The notes beneath the pieces are model-generated. The model was given only the letters and a program-made list of their open reading frames with translations. It was not told the DNA's origin and did no database searches. A program made the translations under genes and the position numbers. Positions 28,788 through 52,293 of a DNA stretch of 64,000 nt are shown here, one piece after another. The stretch covers positions 4,340,001 through 4,404,000 of the forward strand of contig NC_060017.1 in the NCBI RefSeq assembly GCF_021134715.1, given 5' to 3'. Source of the DNA: Daphnia pulex (lineage: Eukaryota; Arthropoda; Branchiopoda; Diplostraca; Daphniidae). Every line of letters starts with the position of its first letter. Positions within the stretch are counted from its first letter, which is position 1.

Positions 28788-28833
28788 ATGCAGACCCAGA
28801 CTGTTTCTTCCGCCGAGATATTCAAAATTGCAG
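28788..28833 (+). CDS. Candidate alternative first coding exon of cytohesin
   Basis: ATG at 28788 opens MQTQTVSSAEIFKIA and ends at a strong GTAAGA donor in phase 1. That is the phase required by the cytohesin exon at 36475. The junction codon would be Asp, giving DLTPAEQ, which matches the DLT-start of the vertebrate cytohesin coiled coil. It predicts a short cytohesin form. No transcript evidence. Confidence 0.4.
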
Positions 28834-30940: not shown

Positions 30941-33900
30941 ATGGCCGTCGTCAACGGATTACAGGCGGCTACCGGGACCCAGTTGGAAAATCTCATCAAC
31001 AAGTGTGAGTGTGCGTTAGGGAGAGAGATAGAAATGCCACGGCTACTACCTGGCATCATCTATAAAGAGCTCTAAGAAGACGAGAGGATAACATAGTAGT
31101 TGTCTAGTCTCTTTTTTCTTCTTCTTTCTTGAGATGTTGCTGCCTGTTTTTGTGTGTTGGTTTTTACTTTCACAAAAACTCCGGCCGCTGGATCATCATC
31201 ATCCACTTCATCTTCCTTTTTTTTGTTGTCGTGGAATGTCCGTGCTATAAATCCCACCAAGAGGGAAATGATAGTGAGGGAGTAGTAGGAGTAGTAGTTA
31301 CATGAGGGCGATATCTTTTTTTTTTAAGGACTGGTTACACCATTCGTGGAAAAACACGCCGCAATGGTCAATCTCTTTTATATTCCACCACCCCTATCCG
31401 ACGAATAAAAAAAATAAAAAGGTTATTGTGTACAGAATAGTGAGACGGGGGGAGAGAGAGAGGGAAAAAAAAGAAACGGGAAGACATTACGGCTGATGGG
31501 CCATCAATGGACAATCATCAAACGGTAGCGCTTGTCATTAAAGGTCCTCAAAAATGTGCCGCCAAACAGCAGCAGGTCTCTCTCTCTCTCTCTCTAGCTT
31601 CTCTTTCTATCTCACGGCATTTCAGATAGAAATAGACGGAAAGAATTGCTCGATGAGCTCATCCAAAAATACGGACACTTTTTCTGGTCAGGAGCCCCCC
31701 AGTCCAGCAGTTCCGGTAGTACCCCCTCTCTGTTCTCCTTGTTCCTCCTCCTACTTTTTTTCCCGTCATTCTCTTTGATTCTTTTATTCTTTTTTACTTT
31801 CTTTCTTTCTCTTCTAAAAAGCAAATGATGAGCGTTTCGGTCGGTCTCGTTTTTCCCAGGGATCTGAACGTCCAGTGCCAAGCAGCTACACACACAAACC
31901 GTGGGCATATCTCTGGTCGAGGTGTGTGGCTGCTGTCCTTTGGACCCTTGTTCATTCTCTCGCTCGGCTCGGACGTTGTTGTTGGCATTGTTGGCACTGT
32001 CGAGATGTGTGCATTTGTGCTCACTGCTGTTCATCATTTTGAATAGATGGGGAAAAAATAGAAAGAGATACTTGAATATGTTCCAGTTTTTCTTCTTCTT
32101 CTTCTATTTTTCCCTCTTGCTCATCTTGTGAATAGAGGCCGTTACAAATTGGGTTGACGTTAAGCCAGGTGTGGTCCTTGGGACCCCCGAAAAAAGTCCC
32201 ACCGATAGGCCGGACACGCATCTAGATAGCCTCTTACACTAAAACTCACTTACTTCTTCTTTTTTTTCTCTCAGCTCTACGAGTGTCTCCTATTTTTAGG
32301 AGCCTGGAAACAACAACAAAACAAAATAAAAAAAAAAGGAGGCAGGTTATATACGTTTTGTATACGGCGAGAGAAAAGTTTCTTTCGTTTTTACTTTCGA
32401 AAGCTCTCCAATCATGTGATGAATAGCTCATCCATCTTCCATCTTTCTGGCTCTCCAGCTCTTTTCTTAGCCATCTGAAGCAGCAGTGGGTGCTGGACGT
32501 TTTTCGAGTTGTCTCCACCTGGACGACAAGTTTCCTCCTTTTGAGACATTTCTCTTTTCTCCGAAACATTTCTCTTTTTTCTCCCGAGTCCCCCCCCCCC
32601 ACCTTTCAAGTATTTGTGTGAGCGCAACCCACTCGGTTTTTTCTTGAAGAGCGCCCCATTCCTGGACCCGATGGAACGTAATTATTTATGAAAACGACAC
32701 CACAATAGGGTTCATGGGATTTTCGGGTCAAATATTGGATCAAATCGGAAAAATTGTTGAGGAGGGAGCTAGATCTCTTTTTCGACGCGGTTCATTGAAT
32801 CTCTGCGGTCTATAAAAGGCGAGGGTGGGTGGGTTGGTTGCGTCTACAAGAGCAGAGAGCAACAGATTATGTTAACAGCGAATAATGGAACGCGTAGTAG
32901 TCGTCTGTCTGTTGGTGGTGTTTGAAGAGGGCCCTCGGATTATGACACTCTGAGCATTTCGGCGCTTTGGAATGTGCCGGGGCTCTCGATGCGATCGCCC
33001 CCAGAAGAGAAGAAGTAAAAAGCAACGGTCGTGACAGAAAAGAATGGTGACAATCCCAAAAGCCGTGCCCTACTGTTCGGTAAATATTTCCGATTTCCGC
33101 CACTGCATCAAATGCAGCCCAGCGTTATGTAGTGGGTATTAGAACTAGAAAGAAAGAAAGAAGAAAAAAAAAACGACGGGAAAGTGTATATAAATACGTC
33201 AGATTGTCTGCACCAGTCCTATAACGGAGAGATAATTTCAACAATGGAGATTAGCATCGACCCCAATAGATATAATGCCGAGGTGTTTCGCGCTGCCAGT
33301 TTTCTTCTTCCAAAATAGTTTTCTTCTTCTTTTATTTTGTTTTTTTCTTGTTGTTTTGAGGCCGCGGTCGTGCGCGTATTATTTTCTTCTTCTTTCACGA
33401 GAGAGAGAGAATGAGACGATCGGAACATTTTTTCGGCGGAGGAGATGAGTCAAAAAGAAACGAAAAACGTCAAGAAAAAGATGCCACGGCGATGATATGA
33501 TGAAACGTGAGCGACGAAGGGCGAATGGAAAGGTGAGACGGATGGGTCCTTGAACTTAGCCAGCGTGTACGTATGTATGTATATGCATGTTGTAGATACG
33601 ATCGCTCTTTTACGCCAGATAATGTCTCATGGCTTTGATAGTCGTCGGAGATGGCGGATAATCAGTTGGATTCGATTAATTCTCGTTACTCGCAGAGCGG
33701 AAAAAAAACAAAACAAAACACGTTTTCTTCTTATTCTAAACTTTTTTTGGAGGTTCGGAGCTTTCCATTATTATAATTATGCAGACGCAACTATGTGTGG
33801 CTGCTATTTTGCACGTTCGGAGCCCAACCTTCCCTCCCTCCTCCTCCTTTTTGATGTTTCTATCCCGTTTTTTTTTTGGTCTCTCTCTCTTTTACTTTTC

Positions 33901-36900
33901 TCCTTGAAGAGTTGTAGCTCGCGTATGTACCTCGTCAGATTTCGCCCTGATGATTTCTTTATAAGATCTATGCGCGCATTATCGGGTGATTGAGTGCCGA
34001 GGAGAACCCGCCCGCCCGCGGGACGGACGACCTTCATGGTCGCTAGCTCAAGCGTGAACGTGCGCCGTGTGTCAGCTCTCCGTCAAAAAACGACGGTAAG
34101 AAAAAAGATAAGAAAAAGAAAAAAAGATTCCGGCAGGATGATGATGGCGGGTTCCGTTGCCGTCACTCGAAAATCGTCCTCTAATCGTCGCCTCGTGTAG
34201 ATTTAGACGTGAGACCGCTGAGGTGTGAATTCCGGGGGTGCCTATTATTTTTTCCCACTCGTTTATGACGGATGAAACGAAGCGGAAATCATTTTGTTCC
34301 ATCGTCTCTCTCTCTCTCTCTCTCTCTTATTATTATTCAACAGGGAACGCCCTGCCGTTTCGTTTCTCTCTTTATGATATCATTTTATTTCGTACGTTCT
34401 TATTTTTTTTTCATTTGTGAATTGTTTTGTTGTCTTTTTTTTTTGGTGGGGGACCCTCTCCTATTTCGGATACTTGTGTCGCCCATTATTTAAACGTCCT
34501 TGTCCCGACACTCGTTCCTGTTTTTTAGAGCTCGTCCTTATCGACTCCACCCCGTAGAAATCTTGTCCCGACCGGACGGACGGGTGAGAGAAATGTTGAG
34601 ATAGGAAGGAAAAAAAAGGGATTGATGTGGCACACGGATTGAGTTGTGTGTGTGGTCTGCATTTTGAGTTGTACGTTTCTAATTTTCCAGAATGAAATCC
34701 TAATTAAAAACGATCGCCGGTTTTTATTTTTATAAATTTGAATAAGTGAAACGATCCTGTTTTCGCAGGGAAACGTTTTCAGACGACATTTATTCAGGAA
34801 TTTGAGCAAATTTCCTCCTAATTGAAAAAATAACAAATAACATTTAAAGAAACAAACTAAAATAAAAAAAATGCGATTAATCGACTTTGAAAATAAAAAT
34901 AAAAATAAAAAAAGGAAAAACTCGCCAAGATTTTCCGACACACTGCTTTTGATTCTCACATTTCACACACGGAAGAATCCGGGTCTAGATTTCGTTTCAT
35001 GGATTCCGTCTGTGTTTTTTTTCTTCTTTTTCTTATTTTCTGACTTCTTTTTGGCTGTGTGACTTTGACTTGGCTATGGCGCCATGGCTAGATAGACCCC
35101 TCCCTTCCACTCCCACGCTGCTTTGGCTCTTCTCTCCATTCACCACCACCACCACCACCGAAATGACACCCGCAACATCGGCTTTTGTTTCACACTCCAT
35201 GTCTCTCCGAGGGTTGGAAATGCCTTTTTTTTTATTATTTGTTGTCAAGATGTGCTGCGCACAGAACCGAAAAAAATATCAAGTCGAAAAGGGAAACTTA
35301 ACGCACACCAGCAGCTGATGACGTTTCATTCCGGAAAGAGGGTGTAGAGTCTAGCTTCCGTATCTAGTCAAATTACTTGTGCTCTGTGTGTGTATCCACC
35401 AGCAACTCGAAAAAAGCCAACAGCCAACTCCCCCTCATCATGTTTTTATAAGAGAATTTGTTGGTTTTTTGTTTCTAGTTTCTCCCCCAAACTTGTTTTT
35501 TTTTTCAAAGAAATTTTGTTGTTTTTATTTAGGAAATTTAGGAAAAAGGCGCTCAGCGTATGGCCTTTTTTGGGTTGACACATTTTTTTAAGTTAGTTTT
35601 TCCCTCTGGCCTGAAGTAATAGAAGGGCCAGGCCGGGGCCGTGGCCGGGTTGGGGTGGTCGGCCGGTCCATATGGAAACGCCAGCAGAGAAAAAGTAGTT
35701 TTTAGATTCTTCCTAGTATTTTATTTTATTTTTTACCGACCGCGACCACCTGCTTCCGTTTTGCCCCAAAGGGAATGAGAGAGGAACTCTCTAACTAGCA
35801 GATTAATAAATAGTCGATGAATAGCCCCCGTGGTAGGTGGGTAGATTATTGTCCTATTGGAAGGGAGAGCTGGAAAATGAGAGAGAGAAAGAGAGAAAAG
35901 GGGTTCTCACGATCACGCTGGCGTCGTTATGTGAAATACACCGAACAGAACAGAACAACAACATCACAAAAAGAAAAAGAGAAATAATGATCGTCGTAAT
36001 CATACGCTGGGCTTCGGCTCGTCATCAGCCAGCTTTTTTTTTTCTTTTTATATATTTTATGTGTGTTTATATGTAAGAGGAACAACACAAACAGTGAAGC
36101 ACGGGAGAGAGCACACACACACAAGCGATAATTATGACTGCCAGAAAATCGTCTGAAAAAAGAAGGGGAGGGCGGTTGTGTTTCCATCATTATAAACTCG
36201 ACGCTCATTGTTCCCCTTTTGTCAACGGCCAAGCGACACGTCAATTCATCATTATATAATATTATGATGATGATTATTATAGAGTCTCCTCTCGCTCACA
36301 TACAGCCCCTGCCAGCAGCTTCTTCATGGGCTCGTTGGGGCGGTTGTAATTTTGTGATATCATATTCGTTTCGTTGGTTTTTCCGTTTTTCGCCTGTTTG
36401 ATATTCATTTTTGTCCGTTTTCTTTTTTCTTTTTTTCATAAATTTTTTCGGGGGGAATTTCCATCGCCCAACAGATCTGACGCCAGCCGAACAACAGCTG
36501 CTCGTCGAGATCCGACGCCGGAAAACGGAACTGCTGAACGAAATACAGGTATTTTATAATCCTTTCTTTCATTTACTGGGTAGTTTAGTCATTTGCATAT
36601 CTCTTTTGAATTGGAATTCGAAGCTATTTGGTTTGAAAATAAAAGAAAAAGCCGGAAATCTTTCGAGCTTAGCGGTAGGTTTTTGAAAAGAAATAAAATG
36701 GAATAAAAATGGAAAATGAAATGGATTAAACAAAAAAGTTGGAAGGGGGGAAATGAAATGCCATGCTTTAGTTAATTTTATGCTCGGCAATTTTTTCCCT
36801 TCTTTTCTTATTATATTGGACTTGGTGTGAAGTGTTGAGTATGTTGAGGTTCCCATTATACGCTACGGCGGCGGCGGCGGCGTGGGAATCGTGTGCATTA

Positions 36901-39900
36901 ATGATCGTTTAAACTAAGATCTTTTTCGTCGGCTTTTCATAGTCGCATAATGGTTGATTTCCATAATAATAGTAGTAGTGGTAGTTGTAGGTAGTTAAAA
37001 AAAGAAAAAAAGGGAAGAAGAAGAAGAACAACCCCCCGCACCCTCAACCCCCCCCCCATTCTTTTCTTCTCCTTTTTTTTCTCTCCCAATTCCTTTCATC
37101 TATTTTCTCTCCCCTCGGTTGTCCATTATGCAAGAATGCGACCCACCACAATCCACAAAAGGAATTTTTTCTCCTTCCTCTACTTTTCCAGCTTCTTCCT
37201 CAATCTTCGAATTTCAAATTCTTTTTCAACTTGACATTTTTCCGGAGGGTGCGCTGAATTCGTTCGTTATCTTATCGCTAGATGGCTTCGCGATCGAGGG
37301 GTTTCGCAGTCGACCGCTAGATGGCGTGGATGGCTTCGAATGTCCATTTATTATTTCACACTTGCCCAAATATTTTTTTTCCGGTCGATTTTTCTCGGGC
37401 GATAGCGCTGGACCCGCGGTTCCGTGAAATCGGAGACGTTGCGTTTCCTCTTGGTCGCCGACGGACTGGCTGTCATAAAAATCCGAGAAAACTATAAATA
37501 ATAAAATCAAAGCGTGATGCCCGAGGATGTGAAAAAAGAGTGTGAATACAGCCGAGAAACAAAAATGTATACAACACACACAAGACACGCGCACACGTAT
37601 ACAGCCATGGGTGCTGGGCGTTGGAGCTTTAAGAATTTCCTTTTTCTCTTTCTTTCTCCCCGAGTCAAATAGTTGAGGAAGTCTTTGAAAATGAAAAAGA
37701 AATAGGAAACGGAAACCTTAAATAGAGAAGAAGAAGAAGAAGAAAAAAATAAATGTAGAGAGAAAAGGAAATCTTTTTTGGGATCGACTGAACGAAACAA
37801 AATAACGAACGGACTCGGGGGTAAAAGTCGGAAGACCGCTTAATGGATTTTTGATGCTCGCCCTTCCATCCCACACACACACACACACTGTGGGTGTCTT
37901 TTCTATTTGTGACTCCGACGACTCCGACTTGTGTGTGTGTTTTTGTCAACGTCGTGGAAATGGTCATATCCGCTTTTTAAGTCGTTCCCATCTCTCCCAT
38001 ATTAAAAGGAAGAAGAAAAAAGAAAGAAACTAGGGAAGAAGAAGAAGAAGAAGAAGATCCCATATATTATTATTAAGTTCCCTTAAGCGTGCAAACACGG
38101 GACCCCTAGTCCGTTAGGAGTCACAAAAGCAGACACAAACAAGGCACACGTCGGTTCTAATCTTATCACCGGGGCGACCTCATCCGCGCTCAGTCGGATG
38201 AACGAACAACAACCAAACAAACAAACAAACAAACCCAACTCTCCCTCTTGATACCCCTCTACCCCAGCCCCGCTCTTCCAAGTGGTGAACCAATAAAATT
38301 GAATGAAAATAATTAATCCGGCTAGGAGATTTAAATCTATTTTGGTTTTTCAGATTTAGAAAAAACTTTTATTTATTTTTGTATTTTGATTTTTTTTACA
38401 GTTAACCGAGTCGAGATTATTTGAGTGTAAATAGAAAAGTTGAAAGAAACGACCCTTTATTTGCTTTACAAAAACCACCCACCGTTATTTCGTTTTTTTC
38501 CCAGTTTCGCCCCTTTTCTTTTTCTGTGTTCTGGGAAACTAAAACAATTAAAGAACAATACAGTTGCTTATACATATATACGTGCACACAGCACTGAGTC
38601 TAGAGTGCCATTGGGGGATACATATAGTCAAAGGACAAGAACAACTCGAGAGACAGTCAAGTGGATGGCTCTTTCCATCTCTTTTAAGCTTTTTATTTCT
38701 GTTTTTAAAAAGAAAATGTTTCGATTCCAAGTGGGGATGGCTAGCGCATATTTCGTGCGTACGTACTTGAAGGGGGGAAGGAAGAACAACTTTGGTGTGC
38801 AGATCTATTCCTTTTAATGATTCTTCTAGTGTTGCTAGCCCTTGACCGTACCAGGACCAGCGAGAGAGAGAGGGAAAACCTTTTGGGAATTTCAGTAACT
38901 TTTCCTATGAAAATTCCAGACAACTTTATCATCGCCAACGGACCCCAATGACTAGCGCACGGAGTCAAGACGATTGCCCGTCGTTTAAATTTGCTATTCT
39001 TTCGCAAAAACGGAAAAATTCCAAAGTCAAATTTTAATAGATGCGTGTTGGCGGAATTCATCATCATCGCATTTCAAACGAAAAAACCATTGCCTCAGAG
39101 ATCTTTAGCTGCCCACCACGCAAACAACCACAGCACTGGCGCTTATATGTCTAGTGTCGTCATATATTTGTGCTGTCTGGAGGACTCCGCCTACTCAAAT
39201 CCACTCAGTCCAGCAGTCCAGCAGCAGCAGCATTCTCTTTTTTCTCGGCGAAATTTATATTCCATCTCTGCGGAGATGACAAGGTCTTTCATGGCAATCC
39301 TTTTCCAGCTCCTCCCCTTTCATTTTCTGCTCTGACAGGTCGGGCGACTCTCTTTGGAAAAAGACAGAACGAAAGCCCCACCACAGCCGTTTAGTTTTTG
39401 TGTGCCTACCTATTCCTTATTCAATATCCCATCTATATGTTACGACTTTTGCTTGGTTGTAAAATCAGAAAAATACGAAGAAAAACAAATTCCAGGCGTT
39501 TGATCGTTATTCAAAATGAAGTGTTATTCTTGTCCTTCGGTGGTGGAGACCCTTGACAAATGAAGCGAACGAAAAGGAACGTGAACCAAAGGCAAGAAAA
39601 CTAGTCACGGCTGCTGTTGCTGCGCCTTTTTTTCTCCACCACCATCACCATCCACTCGGTTTCTAATTCTGTCAAACTGCAGACGACGCCACGTCTATTT
39701 TCTCTCCTCTGCCGCGCTAAACCGTTTGGCTTCTTCTCATTTTTCTTTTTCCTTCCATTTTTTTTTTGTCAATTTTTGAAGAATTTCGGTCGGAATTTAA
39801 AAATAAAAATGTGAGACAAGAATTTTTTGGCATAAGAAATTAGCCTTGATTGAGAGAGGCGACCGAAATATGGGAGGTCTAATAGAATGACACACGCCAG

Positions 39901-42900
39901 TGGTGGTGGTGGTGGGGGCCAGTAGAGATTAGGGCGACGCCATCCGATCGAGAGATTTCTCGTTCACCATTTCGGACTCTGAATCCTTTTTTTTTTTATT
40001 TTTCTAATTGGGTCGGCGACGACGTATTTTATAACTATCGGCGACAAGAAAAAACAAACTTTGGTCCACGATGGGGTAGGGCTGACAAGTTGCCGCTATC
40101 ACGCGGGAAACGCGTCCCGAAAATAAAATAGAATAAAAACAGCTCGTGCTAGATTTTTTGAGAATTTGATTTTTTTTTTAAATTTTTCTTTCTAATTTGT
40201 TTAATTCTTCCCATTATTTAGCAACACCTCATCTCTCTACATCTCCTCCTCCTACCACCCACACACAAAAGTTTGTTTGTCTCGGTTGTTTCTTCACTGT
40301 GTTTCGAGTAGATTAAAAACGAAAGAAAGAAAACGGGAGGAAACGAGAAAATAAGGAATAACGAAAAAAACAAAAGGATTGCATCACTGCGTGAGCAGAA
40401 TAATATCACGCAGCTAGCCCCAACTTCGGGTCGACTCTATCCCCCCCCCCCCCTGGGCGTTTTTTTGTTGTGCATAGTAGTAGTAGAGAGGTCCTGGGAA
40501 AACCGGTCGCACGCAACTTGCTTGCTGCTCTTTTCTCCGTGCTGTGCTTCTTTTGTCTTGCGCGCACGGGAATAACATCTCCCAGGCAAGAAATAAATAG
40601 ACCCGTCTTGAATTCTCTCCTTTGGGTTCCTAACACACACAGTCTTCGTCGTATCTTAGGTATTTTCTTCTTCTTCTTCTTCTTTGCAGGGGCAGTTATG
40701 TGGGCCCCCCTCCCGGTCTATGGCCGACTTGAATAATGAGCGAATCAAAAAGAAAACTGGCGGCGCAGGTTACTATACCCAAACTTTTTTTATTTTAAAA
40801 AAGAAAAGAAAAAAGAAGATGGTCGTCGAAGTAAATAGACATTTGTGTGTGTGCCATATAGAGGGGACACACACACACACACAGACAAGGGCCTCTTGAA
40901 AAAAGAGAGCACCGTGATTCACGGCCCGACCTTTTTTTTGTTATTTTATTTTTATTTTTCAAAAGAGGAGAGAAGAAACAAACGTCGCATTCGCAGATGC
41001 CCAGTCACGAGAAATATTTTTTTTATTATTTCATTTTGGCGCTTGGGTGCCACGGTTCAAAAATTTTCATCTCCCTTTCACGACCGCAACAGAGAGAGAG
41101 AAAAAAAAAGGCACAGGACCGTGACGTCATGAAGATAGCCCGACATGGTGCAACGCCCACACGGCCCCGCTCGCCAAGTGAAAAAATGGGCGGAGACTTT
41201 TTGATATTTCTCCTCTCCTCGTCACAAGTTTCCCCTTTAGGGGAGAGCTGCTGCTGCCGCTGCTGCTGCTGTGGTGCCCTTTAGAGAGAGAGAGAGCAGC
41301 CCCATGTATATTTTCCTAACCTACACAGTCGACTCCCGTATCAGCTGACTTGACTGGGCTAGAGTGTGTGTGGCTGGTAGTAGTAGGAGATGTTGTTGGT
41401 TGGGGGGGAATTGCGAGTCAGTCAGTCAACAGAGCCAAGAGTGTGAGGTGCGTGCGCTCTTGCGCTCTCCATTTTCTTCCAGCCCGCTCGACGTGTATGT
41501 GTGTGTCTATGTGACTCAGTGTGTGTGCGTGCCTGTGTGTGTGTGTTGGTTGGTTGGTTATCGCTTCCGTCGTTGTTGCTGTTGTGTGTACATGTCGATT
41601 AGCTTCGCCATGACGATGACATCACCCGTCGAGTTGGCCGGCAAGTCGGGATGGTTCGGCTCTTTACGGCGCAATCGACTCCCAACTACTCCGGACAAGT
41701 TGACAAAGTCGAATACCATCGACAAAAATGGAACTCTGACGAATATGACGGGCGCTAAATCCTTGTCCAGCTTGCACAAACTCAGTGTCAACCATCATTC
41801 CACCACGGTGTTGAACGAGCGGCTGGACGTGTCGTCGTCGTCGCCCAGGTCCAAGCCGAGGTGGCGGCTGGTCACAATCGAGGGGGCGGAAACTCAAAAA
41901 AGTTAAAAAAAATTACCCGAAAAGTAAAAGGTAAATCGCCAAAAGAAATTTGTTGGCGCGAAATGACAAAACATCAGATAGGGAAGAAAAATGGGGAAAA
42001 AAGTTAAAAAACAAGGAAAAGAGCAAATTTTTCTGTTTTTGATTACAAAAAGAAAAAAAAATTACCCGAAAAGTAAAAGGTAAAGCGCCAAAAGAAATTT
42101 GTTGGCGCGAAATGACAAAACATCAGATAGGGAAGAAAAATGGGGAAAAAAGTTAAAAAAACAAGGAAAAGAGCAAATTTTTCTCTTTTTGCTGACAAAA
42201 AGAGAAAAAACCAGACATTTCGGTTAAAAAACCTTTTTTTTCAGGGGGAAAACTACAAACTTATCAATGCTTAAGGGTATTTCGATTAACGCGACACCTA
42301 GAACAATTCGTCGCAGTTCATTAGTCACATCGCTACTTTCGAGTACCGATGGTTGTAATCATGGATGAAAGTGAAACAAAGTGCGTTTTTAAGTTGTTAG
42401 AAAGCTATGATGTAATTCTAGCCCCTCGACTGATTGCCTTGCTAAAAGAAGTTGATGTGAGTAATCTTAGAACTCTAAGTAAACTGGATTCGCCAGAAAG
42501 AAGAGCTAGCCTCGAAGAGGCCATTCGCGAAAGTGTTAGTGATCCCATGCGCTTTAAAACTCATGAAGAAAAGTTAGTTGTTCTGGGTGAGAAATTTGCG
42601 AGTGACCCATCAAAATTTAAATTCTCTTTTGGGGAGAAAATTACGCTAGAAGAAGTGGTAACGATGTCAAAACGTATTTTACAAGAGTACTCAAAACAGT
42701 ACACCTTTTCTCGTTCGACGTTAAAGCGGAAGAGCTCAGTCCGTCATGATGCACCGATTCAAAAGAAATCTCGCCCTGAAGTCGAGCCTGAAGTTGTGCT
42801 ATCAAATGTTTCCGGTGGCCCATCAACGGCTGCATCGGCTGCTGAAGATGAATCAGCCGTACCAGCACCGCTGATCAGGAAAGGGAGAACCCTTCACGAA

Positions 42901-45900
42901 TACGTCATGAAGTGGTTTCAAACCACAAAGATGTTGGTTGAAAAGCAAATTGCTTATCTTCCAACTGATTGTAAAATTATAGCTGAAAGCAGCTCAATAA
43001 AGTGTTTGAAGTGCGACGTAATACTTAAAACCGGTGTAGACGAATACGGCGGCTGGAAGATAAGTCACTTCGTAAGTCATCATCTTCCAAGGTTCCACAA
43101 AATCGCTCCTGAGCCGCAGGAAACAAACTCACATGAGCCTGTCGCGGATCCAACGCGTGTCCTCAACACGGTACCTTGCACGGTACCAGCACCTATTGTT
43201 GAGTATAAAAGATAAACAAACTGGACAGTGCGGCAACGCAGGATAGCCAGGAAAGAAGAGAGGGGGAGAAGGACCTACCCAGACAAAGGAATAAGAGAGG
43301 GGGACTCAGTGCTGTTGACGATTGTGGCTAGGCGAGTAGCAATACAAAGCGTTCTTTGCAGCAAACAGGTTCACGTGTTAATTTCTATATCAACAGGTTA
43401 TGGGCCCAGCTGTACGCACAGCTAACAGCTACTCTGTCTGAACAATTATTTTTTTTTGTGTGTGTCCCCGGCTAACTGTTCCCAAGAAATTAGAAATTCT
43501 TTTCTGGAGTGATGGAGAAAGATGGCCGCCGCCATGTTGTATGGTGTCTGAATGGGAAAAACTACGCGTCTTGGAAATTTGGAATGAAGCTGGCGTTACA
43601 AAGTGTTGAGCTTTGGGAAGTCGTGAACGGGACTCAACGGCAACCTGCTGAAGTAAGTTTATTGATGATTTATTGTTTTCTTTATGTGTGTGATCCGTGC
43701 CTGACAACAACGCGATATGAGATGCCTATCTGTGGCGTGGTACCAACTATTAAATTGACAAACTTAGATCCCGGCGTGAGTGCTTAATCTCTGCCACTTG
43801 ATTTTGTTTTTTGTGTGTTTGTGTTTGCTGGACATTTCTCTTTTTTGTGTTTCTTTCTCAATCTGTTTGGTCACTCTGGCTAAATTCCATCATATGATGG
43901 TGGACAAGTGTGTGCTAGAGTTGCAAGCATCTAGGAGACAGCTGAGTGTTTTTCCACATCGAGATGATGTGAGGGAGATTCCACATTGAGATAATGTGAG
44001 AGGTATTCCACATCGAGATGATGTGAGGGAGATTCCACATTGAGATAATGTGAGAGGTATTCCACATCGAGATGATGTGAGGGAGATTCCACATTGAGAT
44101 AATGTGAGGCTGCCATGGATATCACAAACCTAACCATCTTCTCGTTTTGTTACCACAATCAGAGACGCAATGCTGACCAGGTGATTGAAAATGCAGCTGA
44201 TATAACCAACTGGAACAAGAGAAATACCACGGCAATGCAGAACATATTTGGCGCCATCAAAGAAGACCAATCAAGGATCCTGATGTCTTGTAGCACAGCC
44301 CAAGAGATGTGGATGAAATTGGAGACTGAGTATGAAGAAGATGCCGCAGACAATGCACCTCTATTGTGGACAAAGTTCTATGGATGCACATTTCGACCAA
44401 GCCAAAGTGTATCAAGCTTCCTGACTGAGTTGGAACAGATAGCATTCCGTCTGAAGAGCCTCAACATAGCTATTGATGATAATCAAATAATGGCAAAGAT
44501 ACTCATGTCGCTTCCTCCAGAGTTCCGTGTTTTTGCCTTTGCATGGGACAGCACGCCTGTTGCAGAGAAAACTCTCAAGAAACTGACTACTCGCCTTATA
44601 GCATTGGACAAGAGCCTGCGCAACGACGAAGAAGCAAAATCGACATCTGATACTGCCTATCTCAGTAAGCCGAACAGAGATGAATCACAGCACAAAGAGC
44701 AAGCACTTCCTGCCCAGTACGGTCAGAACAAAGGAAAAAGCCACCCTTCCAGTCAACATGCTGGTATACCGAGAACATGCTGGGAGTGCAACTCCACTAC
44801 GCATGTTAGAGCTCAATGCCGTCAATACAAACGCCGGCGTGAGAGAGAAGGAGAAGAAGCGGACAGAAAAAGGAAGCGTTACGATCGACATGACAGAAGA
44901 GATGATAAACTATGTAAGCTCCCAGGAGCAACTGGCCGATGCACTCACGAAACCCCTGGCTGCTCCACGCTTCAAGTATCTCCGTGACAAGATTGGCGTT
45001 CGGGGTGTAGGGGAGGTGTAACTGAAGAGTTAAAGGAGGCTGATATTTCTTTTCTTATTATTTGTCTTGTGACACTGAACCTAGTATTTATGTCTGATTC
45101 AAATATGCTGTGTATTCTGTGCTCATGTTTATTTTTGGGGGTCCAGTTTGAGGGGAGGTGTTGAGTATAAAAGATAAACAAACTGGACAGTGCGGCAACG
45201 CAGGATAGCCAGGAAAGAAGAGAGGGGGAGAAGGACCTACCCAGACAAAGGAATAAGAGAGGGGGACTCAGTGCTGTTGACGATTGTGGCTAGGCGAGTA
45301 GCAATACAAAGCGTTCTTTGCAGCAAACAGGTTCACGTGTTAATTTCTATATCAACACCTATTACCAATAACGAGGCAACCACTGCCAACTTGATCAATC
45401 AAAATTTTTGAATGCCGGGAACGAAAATGCAGCTCTCGTTCCCGGCTTTGTTAAACCGACGTTGTTAAAGTGGCTGTACAAACAATTGTTGTTGAATAAA
45501 AATAAGAGAGCTAGAGGACGACGCTTCACAAATGAAGCACTTATTCGCTTTTGTGTGAACTTCTATTGTATGGCCGGTAAAAATTCGTATGAAGTTCTGT
45601 GTGCAAATTTTCACGGCGCCGTCCCTGGTCTGCGTACAGTCAAATCGAAGCTCTCTCGGTACGATAGATCCGTCCCGGAAGGTGTAGTGAACGTCAAATA
45701 TTTAAAGGATTTCCTCATTCAAAACAATTTACCTCTCATCGTGTCTATTAGTGAAGACTGTACCGCTATTGTGTCACAGAGAAATTATGACAGCGCTTCT
45801 AATTCCGTGATGGGTGTCAGTCTACCAATGGAAGCAAACGGACTAAGAAATCACAGACGCGCGGTAGTCACAGATATAAAATCAATTGTCGACGTGTTTG

Positions 45901-48900
45901 AAGAGTTCCCTCGAGCAACGCTGGTGCTTGTAGTTATGGCGCAACCCCTAGTCGACAGCATTCCGCCGATCCGTATTCTTACATTTTGTACGGACAACAA
46001 GTTCACTGCGGAGGACGTAAAGGCTCGCATGCATTCGATAATAACAGCATTAGCAGCGGAAGGGATTCTTGCCCTTGTTTGTTCCGCAGACGGAGATGCC
46101 CGCGAAATGAAATTTATGCGTGAAACGGAAGAGCTGGGTCTTCCGGTTCCAAAAAGTATATATAATTTTTTATGCATTTTTTTCTTCCAATTTTTGAGTT
46201 CGTCTTTTAATTTTTTCATGTGAAAAATTCGTTTGTAAAGGTATCCCTGTTGGCCAGGAAACGCTTTATTCCCTTAAAAAGTCATATTTTTATTTTGCTG
46301 CTATTAAAATCGGATGTGGCATATCAGTCCAGGATCCCATTCATTTAGGTATAAATTAATGAAATTGTTAAAAAATTAAAATGTAAAAGAAAGTAATAAC
46401 GAATTTTATTTATTTCAGTGGCGAAGTTGCGAATGAGACTAATTAGATCAGAAAAATTTATAGCGATTGGCAATTACATTGCTTCACCGGTCCACTTGCA
46501 AACCCTAATGAATCAATATGATAAAAGTCGACATCTGCTAAAACCTGAGGATCTCAACGCGCACGATAAAATGAACTATGGATCGGCAGAGAGATTATGT
46601 CAACCCCATGTTTCCCAACTGCTCCAGCATGTTGAAGGTAGTAGGCTATACATATGAAGGCGAATTCTTTGAAAGAGTTAGAAATTTTTTTTATTTGTGC
46701 GAATGTAAATAGGTTCGGAAGCGACGCAGTTCTATCTTAGGTTGATGAATTACTCTGCTTCAAGTTTTTTGGATAAAAATTTGTCGCCACTGGATCGAGT
46801 ATATCGAATGTGGTACGTGGTGTTCAGTCTACGACTGTGGCGCTATTGGATCACCTGTGATAAGGCGTACACTTTGGCTGCAAATTTTATGACACTAAAC
46901 GTGTATCTTTGCGCCGAGTTTAACGCTCATGCTTTGGTACTTATAGTATTAGCCTTAAAAGACAAACCAGAAGCTTTCAAACCATGGCTGTGTACCAGCC
47001 AACCATGTGAAAGTTACTTCAGAGGTGGCCGCTCTTGCACTACAAACTGCTCAACAATGGTGAACTTTACCGCTCGCGAGTTTTTCAAATCTCGATGCCG
47101 CAAAATTGATGCAACCATTCGCCTTACATCAGACGGAGTGAAGGATGGCCTGTCCTATCCTCGTTTCGAGCGCCCTTTTGACCAGCCGACAAACCAACGC
47201 GTGTGGGAAATGCCGTCGATGGCAGAGATGGACTGTAAAATCCGCGTTGCTCTCGCCGATGCCGAAAAAGATTTGAAAAAACTAGGTTGATAACCATTAT
47301 TCGATTTAAACCAACCAGCAATTCCTTTTTAAATTGTTTTCCTGTAATTAATAGGTTTGCGAGTATCCGGCAAGGACAAGTATTGCTTCAATAAGCAGCT
47401 AGCTGAGCAACTTTTCAGAATTAAAAAAACAAGAAAAAAAAATGACAATTCGACCTCGTCGGCCGATTATGAATTTCTTGACGAGAGCGATGAATCGCAT
47501 TTTGACCTAAGAGAAGATGTTTTCAGTCGAGAGGCTCAGGAAAATAACTTGGAAGAAGGAGACAGGGATTATGAGTTCGACACTCTTGGGGCTGTCATGA
47601 ATGGCACATTCCGTGATCTTTCAAAAACTCATCCCGTTCATGATAACATTAAAAACACAGCCTTTGCTACTCTTGTCCGACCTGATGGACACACCCAAGT
47701 TGTTTCCAAACAGACAATCTGTTGGTTTCTAGAGGGAATGGTGTGGAAAAATAGCAGCGACCGTAAGTGGAGATTTGCAGGTTGCCCCTCTGGTTTTTTT
47801 AAAAGAAAAAGAACAATCACAAAAGTTGAAAAAACTACCCTCAAAAACGGCCTTTGGGCAGTTTTCATTACAGCAGATGGACGAGATTATCTCCTCGGAC
47901 AAGTTCTAGCCTTAGTTGCAATGGATGGGAAAAGTATTCGTTGTGTGAATGAGTGGAATGTGGATGAAAAAACAGAAACCCGTGTTCTGTGTCAATGGTA
48001 CAATATGGTTAGAGAAAACGGGAAGCTAACGGGTAAATTGACTAGAACATTTATGTTCAGTAATGGCTATTATTCCTGCAAATACTATATATGTACTTGT
48101 CCCATCCCTAATTCTGTTCAGCTTGAAGATGAAGACGGTTTACTGTTTGATGTAGAAGTTGTCAATCAATTGTCCCGCTTCTGTCAATTTAAAGAATAAA
48201 ATCTGACAACTCTGCTGTATAACCGCCTCCGGTAAAACAAAAGTCCCAAAAAACCATTTATTTCGCTAGAAAAGTTAAAAAACACAAGAAAACCGGGAAA
48301 AGAAAATAACCTACGCATAAGCAAAAACCCTATGTCTTGTTCAGTCTTGTTGTGCTATTTGTCTAATGGCGCGGAAAACTTTCCAAAAACAACAAAAAAC
48401 TCTCACCTACAAAAAACTTTTTTTGAGTTTCCGCCCCCTCGGTCACAATTTTGGGCGGCGGTCGATCCAAGAAAAGCGACTCGTCCGTCGACATTTCCGA
48501 CCGGAACTGCGACTCGACAGTGACGGATCCGTCTAGACGTCCAGCAGCCGTCACAGTTGCACTTCCGAGTGTCAAGGAGCAACTGGGTGACGACGACCGG
48601 AATCTCTCGCAATTCTGCACTCTGCCCCGGAAGCGCTCGCCGCAGAACCACCTCCCGGATTGTGGGGAAAACAACAGCGGCAATGGCAACGGCGGCGGAT
48701 CGTCCAGTCGGGTGTTGCCTCCGCTGTCGGCTTCGACGAGCCGATCGCGAGCCCACACGAGCAGCACGGCCTCGCTGGATCGACGTAAAAAGCGATCCAC
48801 CGTCTGGTACACGATTTCCGAGAGCGAAGTCTACGGTGGTGGCGGAAGGAGCAGAGTGAGTTTATTTTCACTGGAAAACAACCTGGAACCGACCCCTCGG

Positions 48901-51900
48901 AAAAAATGGGAAAAGTTAGAGGGGATAGAGAGAGCTAGGATGGAACGAGGGAGCTGTATAGATATAGACAGGGGTTGTTGTTGTTGTTGTTGTTGTTATT
49001 GTTGATGTTAGCATCACGGCTTGTTGGTCCGTTGCGTTCGTGCCTACGCCTAGCCGTTCCGCCCTGATGAGCCTGTCATTAAGCTATGTTGCCACTACCA
49101 TCATCATAGTAGCGTGAGAGGGGCTAGGCTCGTTCCCATTGGTTTATACTGTTATCCCTCCCGTCACAAATCCATTCCCGTTGAACAATGGGCCTCCTCC
49201 GGGCCCCCGAAACTCGTTATTCAATCCATAATATTATAACACCCGTCATTCATTTGTTATATTTTTAGATTTTTATTATCTTTTTTTTCTCGAAAAATTC
49301 TAAACTATATTTTTTCTTGATTGATTTTGACAGCAACTCAAAGATGAGATCGCCGAAGTCACGGCCGAGATGGAGAGTCTGGACAATACGGGCGAAGACA
49401 GGTAAGAGGAAGAATCCGAATCATTTTCTTTTTTCTGTTTTCTTTTTAAAAATGAGTGGAAAAGCAGATCACACAAAGTGCAGAGGAGAGAAGAACTCTC
49501 TGCATTCCAAACTTGTGAGCCACCAAATCTTTTTTCCTATGGTGGTGGTGGAAAAAAAAAGTGGTTTTTATCTTATCGCCAACTTGCACAGCATAACGCC
49601 CACCACACACACAAGGGGCCCAGCTGTGTGTTTTGAACTTTGAGTCGGCGATTTGATTTTTCTTCCTGTCGTGGTTTTTCTTCTTCTTTTCCCTATCGAT
49701 TGCAGTTGTGTGTCCAGGACGATGATGATGTGTCAGCAGTTTTTCTAATTTCTTAAAATCTTCTTTTTGATTTTGACAGTAAAAATGCAGCCCGGGCTAA
49801 GCAGCTCTCGCTCGGAAGGAAGAAGTTCAACATGGACCCGAAAAAGGGCATTGAATTCTTGTTGCAACAGGGACTCTTGCAGAACACGCCTCAAGACATT
49901 GCCGCTTTCCTCTACAGGTACCCAATCTACTACTACTACTACCCCAGCCTTTGCTTCAAAGTTCAGAATTTTTGAGGCTATAAACAAGTCTTAATGATTC
50001 ACGTCCCGTCATCTACTTGAAGAAGAGTGTCGGCCTCCTCCCTCTCTCTGGCAGTGGGAGGTCAAAATGTTCATTCATCTTTTAATCCATCCGTCGGGAG
50101 GGATCATTATTGCTGTTGTTATTATCGTTGACTTGGAGCTGGGGCAAAAGTTTCTTTTAAAAGAACGTCATGAAAGAGAAAGAACATTTTTTCGGCTTTG
50201 ATAATAATAAGCCCCGTTTTTGTGTGCGCACTTTTGTCGTTGGCCTTTTTTGTGTGTTGGTTTTTCGCTAATAACACACATAGATGGATATAGTCGGTTG
50301 GTTGGTTGCTGCCCTGCTTATTTTGTGTATCTTTTTTCCTCCTCGTCGGTTTCCCACAGGGGCGAAGGACTAAGTAAGACGGCCATTGGTGATTATCTTG
50401 GCGAGAAAAGCCCCTTCCACGAGCAAGTCTTGAAAGCTTTCGTCGATCTGCATGACTTTACAGATCTCATCATCGTGCAGGCATTAAGGTGAGCTACTCT
50501 CTTTTTTCGGGGGGGTTGTTGTTTAGTTTCCAGGCCGTTCTGCTTTCGTGGATTCACATGGACTTTTTGAATGTAATCTACTTTCTCTACGTGTGTCCCA
50601 ATAGGCAATTCCTGTGGAGTTTCAGGCTGCCTGGAGAAGCCCAGAAGATTGACAGAATGATGGAGACCTTCGCTCAGCGTTACTGTCAGCTCAACCCAAA
50701 CATTTTCTCCAATCCAGGTACATACATATACCATCACCACCAGACCATTTTCTCTCCTTCCTTGCTCAGCCATGCGTCTTTTTGTTTACCCTATCCGATC
50801 CGGTCGCATCTATATCGACTGGAACTTGTTGAGGTGTGCCAAAAATTCGTAATTGGTTTCATTTGATTTCCTCCCCCTGTCAAAACACATAGATACCTGC
50901 TACGTCTTGTCGTTTTCCGTCATCATTCTCAACACGAGCCTGCACAATCCCAGCGTCAAGGAGAAGCCCACCCTGGACAAATTCATCGCCATGAATCGTG
51001 GCATCAACGACGGCAAAGATATTCCGAGAGACATTCAAGAGGTGAATTTCCTTTTCTCTTCAATTGTCCCATCCAACAATTTCTTCTCTCTTTGGGGACA
51101 CGACGAGTTATAATACAAGCGACTAACTCTCTTCTTCTTCTCCTGCCAGAGTATCTACGATAGTATCAAGGCTGAGCCTTTCAAAATACCCGAGGACGAC
51201 GGCAACGACCTGATGCACACATTCTTCAACCCGGACCGTGAAGGATGGCTATGGAAACAAGGTAAGGCTTTTCTCCCCACACACACACACACCGTGGAAA
51301 TTTTTAAAAACACTTGTGTGATTGTCTTTCGTATAGCCCACCGATTCTTATTCGCTTTTTTCTTTTTGGGTTTTTTTTTTGACAAATGTTTCAAACAAAA
51401 AAAAGGTGGCCGCTACAAATCGTGGAAGAGACGCTGGTTCATTCTGAACGACAACTGCTTATACTACTTCGAGTACACCACCGACAAAGAGCCCAGGGGC
51501 ATTATTCCGCTAGAAAACATTCAGGTATGATATATTAAACCAACAGCATTTTTTTTTTAAAGTGGCCAATTTCCTGCTTGTTTTTCTCGTTTATACCAAA
51601 GAAAAACGAATTTCGTTGTTGTTATATCGTGTCAGTCAATCATCATTATCATAAAAACCGAAATTTTTCTTCAAATCCATCAGGTCCGTGAAGTGCCGGA
51701 TAGGAACAAGCCCAACTGTTTCGAACTCTACGCCACGGGTGGCAACGACTTCATCAAAGGTGCACATATACATATAATCTATCTATCTATAATAATGCAA
51801 CTTGCTACCCACTACTGCTGGGTTAGCCTCCCGTGTTGCATGCGAAAATGGCATCGTCGACTAGATTGGGAAATGGAGAATCTACAATTCTAAAACGGTT

Positions 51901-52293
51901 ATTATTATTTTTATTTGTATTTTTTCGATTCACAACAGCCTGCAAAACGGATTCCGAGGGGAAAGTGGTCGAGGGCAAGCACACTGTTTACAGAATGTCC
52001 GCCGCCGAACAAGCTGAAAAAGACGAATGGATCGCTTGCATTAGGTAAAAATAAACAACAAAAAAATTTGTTCCCAACCAACCCACATCCGTTTCTCTTA
52101 CTTTTTATCTTTATTTACATTTGCGTAGTCTGTTGTTACTCAACTCAACTCATTTTTTTCTTTTTTCTTTCATTCGTTTTGTTTCTGTGCGGTCGAATTA
52201 TACAGGCAAAGCATAAGCCACAACCCGTTCTACGACATGCTAGCGGCCAGGAAGAAGAAAGCTCAGAAATCTGGTCATCGAACCAAACCCTGA
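30941..52293 (+). CDS. step: Cytohesin (Arf guanine-nucleotide exchange factor, steppke-type)
   Basis: Exons 30941-31004, 36475-36548, 49334-49401, 49780-49917, 50360-50488, 50605-50717, 50893-51041, 51150-51261, 51406-51524, 51684-51759, 51939-52044 and 52206-52293 sum to 411 residues. Cytohesins activate Arf GTPases at the plasma membrane and act in insulin signalling. Order: a short N-terminus, the coiled coil ([20 protein letters not shown]), a Sec7 domain with the catalytic-loop region [15 protein letters not shown] and [20 protein letters not shown], then a PH domain ([20 protein letters not shown], phosphoinositide-binding) and a polybasic tail. The first two introns are about 5.5 and 12.8 kb, full of simple sequence and transposons, while Sec7-PH introns are short. 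Several other first exons are possible (28788, 32869, 33244, and a long one from 41592). Confidence 0.94.
32811..32819 (+). promoter_or_regulatory. TATA box of a candidate internal cytohesin promoter
   Basis: TATAAAAGG is a near-perfect TATA box, 50 bp upstream of an ATG at 32869. Confidence 0.45.
32869..32917 (+). CDS. Candidate cytohesin alternative first exon behind a TATA box
   Basis: Open frame [16 protein letters not shown] ends at a weak GTGTTT donor in phase 1, compatible with the exon at 36475 and again yielding an Asp at the junction. The weak donor makes it doubtful. Confidence 0.25.
33187..33196 (+). promoter_or_regulatory. TATA box of a second candidate internal promoter
   Basis: TATATAAATA, about 57 bp upstream of an ATG in a strong start context (TCAACAATGG). 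Confidence 0.45.
33244..33298 (+). CDS. Candidate cytohesin alternative first exon
   Basis: Open frame [18 protein letters not shown] from an optimal arthropod start context. It ends at a weak GTTTTC donor in phase 1, compatible with exon 36475. Not similar to any N-terminus I recognise. Confidence 0.3.
37314..37327 (+). promoter_or_regulatory. CTCF-like motif (paired)
   Basis: CCGCTAGATGGCGT resembles the CTCF core, and a second CGCTAGATGGC lies about 40 bp upstream (37276-37286). It could be a small insulator inside the large intron. Similarity is at motif level only. Confidence 0.25.
38035..38056. repeat. (GAA)n microsatellite
   Basis: Seven uninterrupted GAA units in the cytohesin intron. 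Confidence 0.9.
41592..41878 (+). CDS. Long alternative N-terminal exon of cytohesin, left half
   Basis: Open frame from [20 protein letters not shown] (alternative ATGs at 41610 and 41616) with a basic [15 protein letters not shown] segment and a Ser-rich region. It runs straight into the left end of the DNA transposon, where the frame reads a few element-derived codons and stops at about 41906. The host frame resumes unchanged on the far side at 48450. Deleting the element and one target copy would leave a single open exon ending at 48855. Low-complexity, disorder-like N-terminal extension; function unknown. Confidence 0.65.
41871..41878. repeat. 8-bp target-site duplication, left copy
   Basis: GTCACAAT, repeated exactly at 48442-48449, flanks the DNA transposon. 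Confidence 0.9.
41912..42205. repeat. 149-bp tandem duplication in the transposon left end
   Basis: Two nearly identical copies start at 41912 and 42061 with ATTACCCGAAAAGTAAAAGG. They differ by a few substitutions and small indels. Subterminal duplications often hold transposase-binding sites. Confidence 0.85.
43197..43395 (+). repeat. 5' LTR of Copia element
   Basis: 199 bp, TG...CA ends, with a TATAAAAG promoter sequence at its very start. Identical to the 3' LTR by reading both. Confidence 0.95.
43396..43410 (+). promoter_or_regulatory. Primer-binding site (initiator tRNA-Met type)
   Basis: GGTTATGGGCCCAGC abuts the 5' LTR. The same sequence serves the Drosophila copia element, which primes from a cleaved half of initiator tRNA-Met. 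Confidence 0.85.
43512..44987 (+). pseudogene. Copia gag remnant, apparently intron-containing
   Basis: An ATG at 43512 opens a frame with the Copia gag start region ([28 protein letters not shown]) that stops being gag-like at a GTAAGT donor at 43651. Gag resumes after a CACAATCAG acceptor at 44161 ([20 protein letters not shown]), phase 0 on both sides. The later part has the gag core and one zinc knuckle ([14 protein letters not shown]), then a basic tail. At about 44908 the sequence changes to the end of pol in another frame, marking the internal deletion. It describes a decayed gag, not a full polyprotein. Confidence 0.8.
43952..44109. repeat. Palindromic 27-bp minisatellite inside the Copia element
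   Basis: Six units of 27 bp in two alternating types, TTCCACATCGAGATGATGTG and TTCCACATTGAGATAATGTG, each followed by a short spacer. Each unit is an inverted repeat (CACATC with GATGTG, or CACATT with AATGTG). The two types differ by a paired change that preserves the hairpin. Confidence 0.9.
44908..45021 (+). pseudogene. C-terminal RNase H scrap of Copia pol
   Basis: Contains [20 protein letters not shown], the characteristic end of Copia-type RNase H, and stops at 45021. It lies in a different frame from the gag tail that overlaps the junction. Confidence 0.8.
45159..45357 (+). repeat. 3' LTR of Copia element
   Basis: 199 bp, identical to 43197-43395. It is followed by the right copy of the CCTAT duplication, then by transposase sequence. 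Confidence 0.95.
48442..48449. repeat. 8-bp target-site duplication, right copy
   Basis: GTCACAAT, partner of 41871-41878. Confidence 0.9.
48450..48855 (+). CDS. Long alternative N-terminal exon of cytohesin, right half
   Basis: Starts [19 protein letters not shown], runs through Ser/Arg/Gly-rich sequence ([24 protein letters not shown]) and ends YGGGGRSR at a GTGAGT donor in phase 0. The next cytohesin exon (49334, QLKDEIAEV) is also entered in phase 0, so this exon would feed into the Sec7-PH body and skip exon 36475. The frame is in register with 41592-41878 once the transposon is removed. Confidence 0.65.
48973..49004. repeat. (TTG)n microsatellite
   Basis: About ten TTG units with one interruption (TTA), immediately downstream of the long alternative exon. 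Confidence 0.9.

Follow-up and report, generated by a model that had tools for sequence, protein, structure and literature searches.

Has a DNA transposon that lies between two exons of a cytohesin gene merely lengthened an intron, or has it broken an exon? The question is raised by a 64,000-nucleotide stretch of the Daphnia pulex genome (contig NC_060017.1, positions 4,340,001 to 4,404,000 of the forward strand), hereafter the window, whose own numbering we use throughout. We consider it probable that the transposon entered an alternative first coding exon of cytohesin, 693 nt in length, and was itself later hit by a copia-type element, so that the long isoform was lost from this allele while the short ones were kept. 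At the insertion we recognized the following features.

41592..41878, plus strand: left half of the probable long first exon, 287 nt, open from an ATG; its last 8 nt (41871-41878) are the left target duplication
41879..48441, plus strand: inserted DNA transposon, 6,563 bp counting a nested long terminal repeat (LTR) element, defined by its terminal inverted repeats (TIRs), its target duplication and three shorter relatives that share the TIR
41879..41901, plus strand: left TIR, complementing the right one at 23 of 23 positions
48419..48441, minus strand: right TIR, complementing the left one at 23 of 23 positions
48442..48449, plus strand: right copy of the target duplication, GTCACAAT
48450..48855, plus strand: right half of the probable long first exon, 406 nt, donor AGA/GTGAGT, phase 0

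The preliminary description of this DNA had reported a 6.6-kb transposon with an 8-bp target copy, and this stands: perfect 23-bp TIRs are flanked by the 8-bp duplication GTCACAAT at 41871-41878 and 48442-48449. Together, these are the marks of a cut-and-paste DNA transposon, and a target duplication also accompanies two of the three short copies. Beyond the earlier account, the transposon was seen to carry a nested copia-type LTR element, which makes the insertion a composite. As an event, this is of an ordinary kind, namely a DNA transposon in a host gene that was itself hit by a second element.

Removing the element and one copy of the duplication joins 287 and 406 nt into a stop-free frame of 693 nt that ends in phase 0 at a GTGAGT donor. 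The claims that the two halves are in register, and that the right one ends in the phase of the phase-0 cytohesin exon at 49334, therefore both hold. The peptide predicted from it, 231 residues long, is basic (22 R, pI 10.5) and rich in serine (41 S), and it has no Pfam match.

Which gene would such an exon serve? Around the insertion, we assembled the following plus-strand exons.

28788..28833, plus strand: candidate short-isoform first exon A, with an ATG, beginning MQTQTVSSAEIFKIA, donor CAG/GTAAGA, phase 1, frame fitting the shared exon
30941..31004, plus strand: candidate short-isoform first exon B, with an ATG, donor AGT/GTGAGT, phase 1, frame fitting the shared exon
36475..36548, plus strand: shared short-isoform exon, encoding the first coiled-coil half, phase 0 donor CAG/GTATTT, fitting 49334
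49334..49401, plus strand: first of the common cytohesin exons, encoding the second coiled-coil half, acceptor in phase 0
49780..52293, plus strand: remaining cytohesin exons (Sec7, PH), 49780-49917, 50360-50488, 50605-50717, 50893-51041, 51150-51261, 51406-51524, 51684-51759, 51939-52044 and 52206-52293

The host gene is a genuine cytohesin, as had been proposed. The ten common exons (49334-52293) keep an open spliced frame up to a TGA and, together with 28788-28833 and 36475-36548, encode a 405-residue protein with a Sec7 domain (PF01369, 2.9e-76) and a C-terminal PH domain (PF00169, 3.9e-23). It matches the solved structure of cytohesin-3 (4.4e-176, residues 16-396). A local tblastn search with the N-terminus of human CYTH1, an approximate query, recovered the N-terminal coiled coil in two pieces (36468-36548, E 1.9e-5, 63% identity; 49331-49396, E 5.7e-4). 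The second piece falls on the exon at 49334, which is preceded by ...TTTTGACAG and translates as QLKDEIAEV... in frame 0. The short-form starts that had been expected upstream also have candidates, since exons A and B, both of phase 1 and separated by more than 5 kb from the shared coiled-coil exon downstream, lie ahead of the insertion. The gene thus resembles Cytohesin/Steppke ARF exchange factors in its coiled coil, Sec7 and PH domains, and differs in a candidate 231-residue N-terminus that takes the place of the first coiled-coil half.

Is the joined frame coding? We took the element out of host positions 28834-49333 and scanned the resulting empty-site stretch (13,929 nt) in six frames. 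Of the 25 open reading frames (ORFs) that reach 100 codons, none is longer than the joined frame, which has 361 codons from stop to stop and 280 from the ATG; the runner-up, of 208 codons, is antisense to it, and the longest non-overlapping one has 163 codons. The 693-nt frame stayed open in 30 of 5000 first-order Markov sequences and in one of 2000 mononucleotide shuffles. We then scored codon usage with a model trained on 2897 codons, drawn from the cytohesin coding sequence and from 17 stop-free PH-domain matches among 30 loci (the other 13, one of them the window's cytohesin gene, had internal stops and were left out). The joined frame came first of six at +0.072 bits per codon; its left half scored +0.114, its right half +0.021 (the best of six), and the leader immediately upstream (41349-41591) -0.690. 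None of 2000 shuffles matched the joined-frame score, and the same held when only synonymous choice was scored. As a control, the model was applied to seven further ORFs of the window that lay outside the training set and looked coding on inspection by eye; it ranked the right frame first in six of them.

Base composition gave a similar picture. The left half has a GC content of 0.38/0.53/0.74 at the three codon positions and the right half, in the same register, 0.55/0.60/0.69; the cytohesin coding sequence, at 0.50/0.36/0.65, has the same bias towards GC at third positions (GC3). The leader, at 0.51/0.56/0.53, has no GC3 excess. The excess amounts to 0.14 for the 693-nt exon and 0.07 for the whole stop-to-stop frame; shuffles reached it in 1 of 5000 cases for the left half, 105 of 5000 for the right half and 0 of 5000 jointly, and Markov sequences in 2 of 5000. 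The joined frame thus carries a coding-type signal beyond chance.

Several results nevertheless weigh against an exon of cytohesin at this place. The lead in codon score over one antisense frame is small (0.072 versus 0.057), and in the left half alone the antisense frame is slightly ahead (0.132 versus 0.114). The GC3 excess is no general coding mark here: none of the seven control ORFs has it, and of the remaining 24 ORFs in the empty-site stretch two exceed the value of 0.07, one antisense to the exon (0.15) and one on the minus strand at 31615-32103 (0.12). Searches of the D. pulex assembly (133,188,837 bases in 13 contigs, the window being C1:4340001-4404000) with each half found only this locus, at E up to 0.001 and, in a second search, at E up to 1. 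Three ATGs precede 41592, all out of its frame. Finally, the donor AGA/GTGAGT at 48855 scores only 4.0 on a weight matrix built from 12 donors, below all 12 of them (5.2-12.3), and 7.6% of the window's 3555 scored GT sites do as well.

The compositional points among these would fit a frame left open by chance in a GC-rich 5' region or enhancer, as would the two fairly open antisense frames over the same stretch (208 and 154 codons). We regard this as quite improbable, because shuffled and Markov sequences rarely or never attain the openness, the GC3 phase and the codon score, and because the coding-type signal begins at the ATG. Separately, the minus-strand frame at 31615-32103, 163 codons within the cytohesin 5' intron, has a negative codon score (-0.063) and is therefore probably not coding.

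The weak donor, in turn, would fit a separate coding gene that sits inside the cytohesin intron and is read unspliced to the stop at 49003. The frame does remain open beyond 48855 as far as that stop, giving 280 residues from the ATG, and the predicted product has no Pfam domain. Three observations speak for an exon boundary instead: GC content drops from 0.60 to 0.46 at the donor; GTGAGT occurs there and at no other of the 25 GT sites in 48600-49003; and the phase at that site, 0, suits the next exon. As to the donor's weakness, candidate first exon B (AGT/GTGAGT) likewise lacks a G as its last base. A separate gene is an unlikely explanation, albeit the strongest of the competitors, and we judge it likely but unproven that the split exon belongs to cytohesin.

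How would an alternative first exon of cytohesin have worked, and what would the insertion have done to it? Transcription would start near 41.4 kb, where an initiator-like word (TCAGTC at 41422) is only suggestive of a promoter. The base at -3 is T for the ATG at 41592, G for that at 41610 and A for that at 41616, so that by the usual context rule the true start could lie a few codons later. The uninterrupted exon would supply 231 residues in place of the first coiled-coil half, which 36475-36548 encodes, and its phase-0 donor would join 49334, yielding a long cytohesin of about 596 residues, as against about 405 for the short form. A cut-and-paste transposon would then have entered this exon, creating the 8-bp target duplication, and a copia-type retroelement would have inserted into the transposon afterwards. 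On the sequenced allele, a transcript from near 41.4 kb would encode 104 residues (96 from the exon and 8 from the transposon) before a stop at 41904. Because of this stop, and because no ATG of the right half is in frame, this allele should no longer make the long form; the eight AATAAA/ATTAAA words on the transposon's sense strand make early termination possible as well.

The short isoforms, by comparison, should persist. The insertion sits between 36548 and 49334 and is hence intronic for both of them; with it, intron 36549-49333 measures 12.8 kb instead of about 6.2 kb, and transcripts from both upstream first exons would splice across it. In a diploid clone, the other allele may be intact.

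Two further explanations accept the exon and dispute the loss or its effect. The element could be spliced out as an intron, leaving an altered long isoform. Intron gain driven by transposable elements is known in diverse eukaryotes (PMC9860276), and it is described as frequent in D. pulex itself (PMC5427498). The gained introns are short, however, with a median of 72 bp in one D. pulex genome and 76 bp in another (PMC5427498). At this locus we found no convincing donor-acceptor pair: the six frame-keeping pairs above low cut-offs are all weak, and every one of them removes part of the exon. The donor matrix can miss sites, though, as it also rates several introns of the transposase-like gene poorly. 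Alternatively, the exon could have been real and already dispensable, and the insertion neutral. The short isoforms do read as complete, but both halves are still stop-free, which would not be expected of a long-unused exon. Either explanation seems to us very improbable. Disruption of a cytohesin exon in use thus remains the reading we favour. Of the interpretation originally offered, the transposon, the register, the coding-type signal, the phase, the cytohesin identity and the upstream candidate first exons were borne out; no transcript or homologous protein linking the exon to cytohesin and no empty allele came to light, the eukaryotic sequence searches having covered this genome only, and the donor proved weak.

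What would a long cytohesin do? The Drosophila cytohesin Steppke is recruited partly via its coiled coil by the adaptor Sstn (PMC4640550), so an isoform with half of the coiled coil exchanged would be expected elsewhere in the cell. As a more speculative and doubtful extension, Daphnia, or arthropods, might possess a long cytohesin that has a basic, serine-rich tail where half of the adaptor-binding coiled coil would be and is therefore recruited differently, and the transposon allele of this clone would be an isoform-specific knockout. If so, a conserved ARF exchange factor lacks just one of its isoforms in a natural allele that leaves the others intact, and isoform function could be studied in a clonal animal without engineering. 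This possible isoform-specific effect is what lends the locus interest beyond a routine insertion. No such long N-terminal form appeared in the accessible parts of the literature on Steppke isoforms and on the cytohesin coiled coil and FRMD4 in Drosophila; a search pairing cytohesin with Daphnia returned nothing; and one for cytohesin "alternative first exon" returned only unrelated work, judged by title and the start of the abstract. As would be expected of an animal sequence, the long exon had no relatives in bacterial and archaeal genome contigs or in viral contigs.

To which family does the transposon belong? Its own coding content, part of which now runs into the LTR element, is as follows.

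42325..43215, plus strand: transposon ORF 1, stop to stop, now extending into the LTR element
45372..48199, plus strand: transposase-like gene of five exons, 45372-46155, 46241-46348, 46419-46637, 46713-47285 and 47355-48199

ORF 1 matched no Pfam family at E 0.1, and at E 10 a single one, PMBR, with E 0.2, under its cut-off. The five-exon reading of the transposase-like gene is open across 842 aa, yet at E 10 Pfam returned nothing for it or for three relatives. A search of the PDB gave no match up to E 1 and one up to E 10 (E 1.6), which we take as chance, and viral contigs held no relatives. In its own genome, the exon 4 ORF has at least 34 matches, itself included, and the nine next-best (loci L009-L016 and L022) are 39-54% alike. 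That this transposase-like family stands outside Pfam is one reason why the locus exceeds the routine.

We also examined the P superfamily. The 8-bp target duplication agrees with it, but duplications of this length are common to other superfamilies as well. The likeness to a P-element-type disrupted allele extends to the inverted ends and to internally deleted relatives that share them, features that P elements have together with 8-bp duplications (PMC7776569). The difference lies in the transposase: a P/THAP9-type transposase (PF21787 and related) was not recovered from the gene by Pfam at E 10, none of the 77 PF21787 matches in the genome falls within the window, and a comparison of the transposase family with PF21787 copies by hhalign gave a probability of 0.2 out of 100, a weak test with small profiles of 2 and 4 sequences. 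Membership of the P superfamily is therefore unproven.

The first 15 bases of the TIR occur exactly eight times in the genome, corresponding to both ends of four elements: the window copy and three short copies (L003, L004 and L005), all on contig C2. The short copies measure 1,228-1,232 bp and share the same 23-bp ends; two are identical and the third is 99.7% alike. Two of the three have perfect 8-bp duplications; L003 lacks one, as if its flanks had been rearranged. We regard the short copies as internally deleted relatives of the window transposon. They match it at 93% across 174 left-end bases and at about 82-86% at the right end, a divergence that speaks against this particular copy as their source. 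Recent movement of the family is probable, although the insertion at 41879 cannot be closely dated. Without the LTR element and its duplication, the transposon would measure 4,397 bp, by arithmetic on lengths only. Its left subterminal region contains a 149-bp stretch in tandem duplicate (41898-42195), the copies being 85% alike.

The second element is the following.

43197..45357, plus strand: copia-type LTR element inside the transposon, with LTRs at 43197-43395 and 45159-45357

Its 199-bp LTRs are identical at 199 of 199 positions, have TG...CA ends and are flanked by a 5-bp duplication, CCTAT (43192-43196 and 45358-45362); with the Pfam gag families PF14223 and PF14244, these identify it as a copia-type LTR retrotransposon. 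It differs from other elements of this type in being only 2,161 bp long and in containing gag-type ORFs and little else, and by comparison with the usual copia layout it therefore looks like an internally deleted copy. Within it lies a tandem repeat (43943-44104) with a 54-bp period that consists of two alternating 27-bp units.

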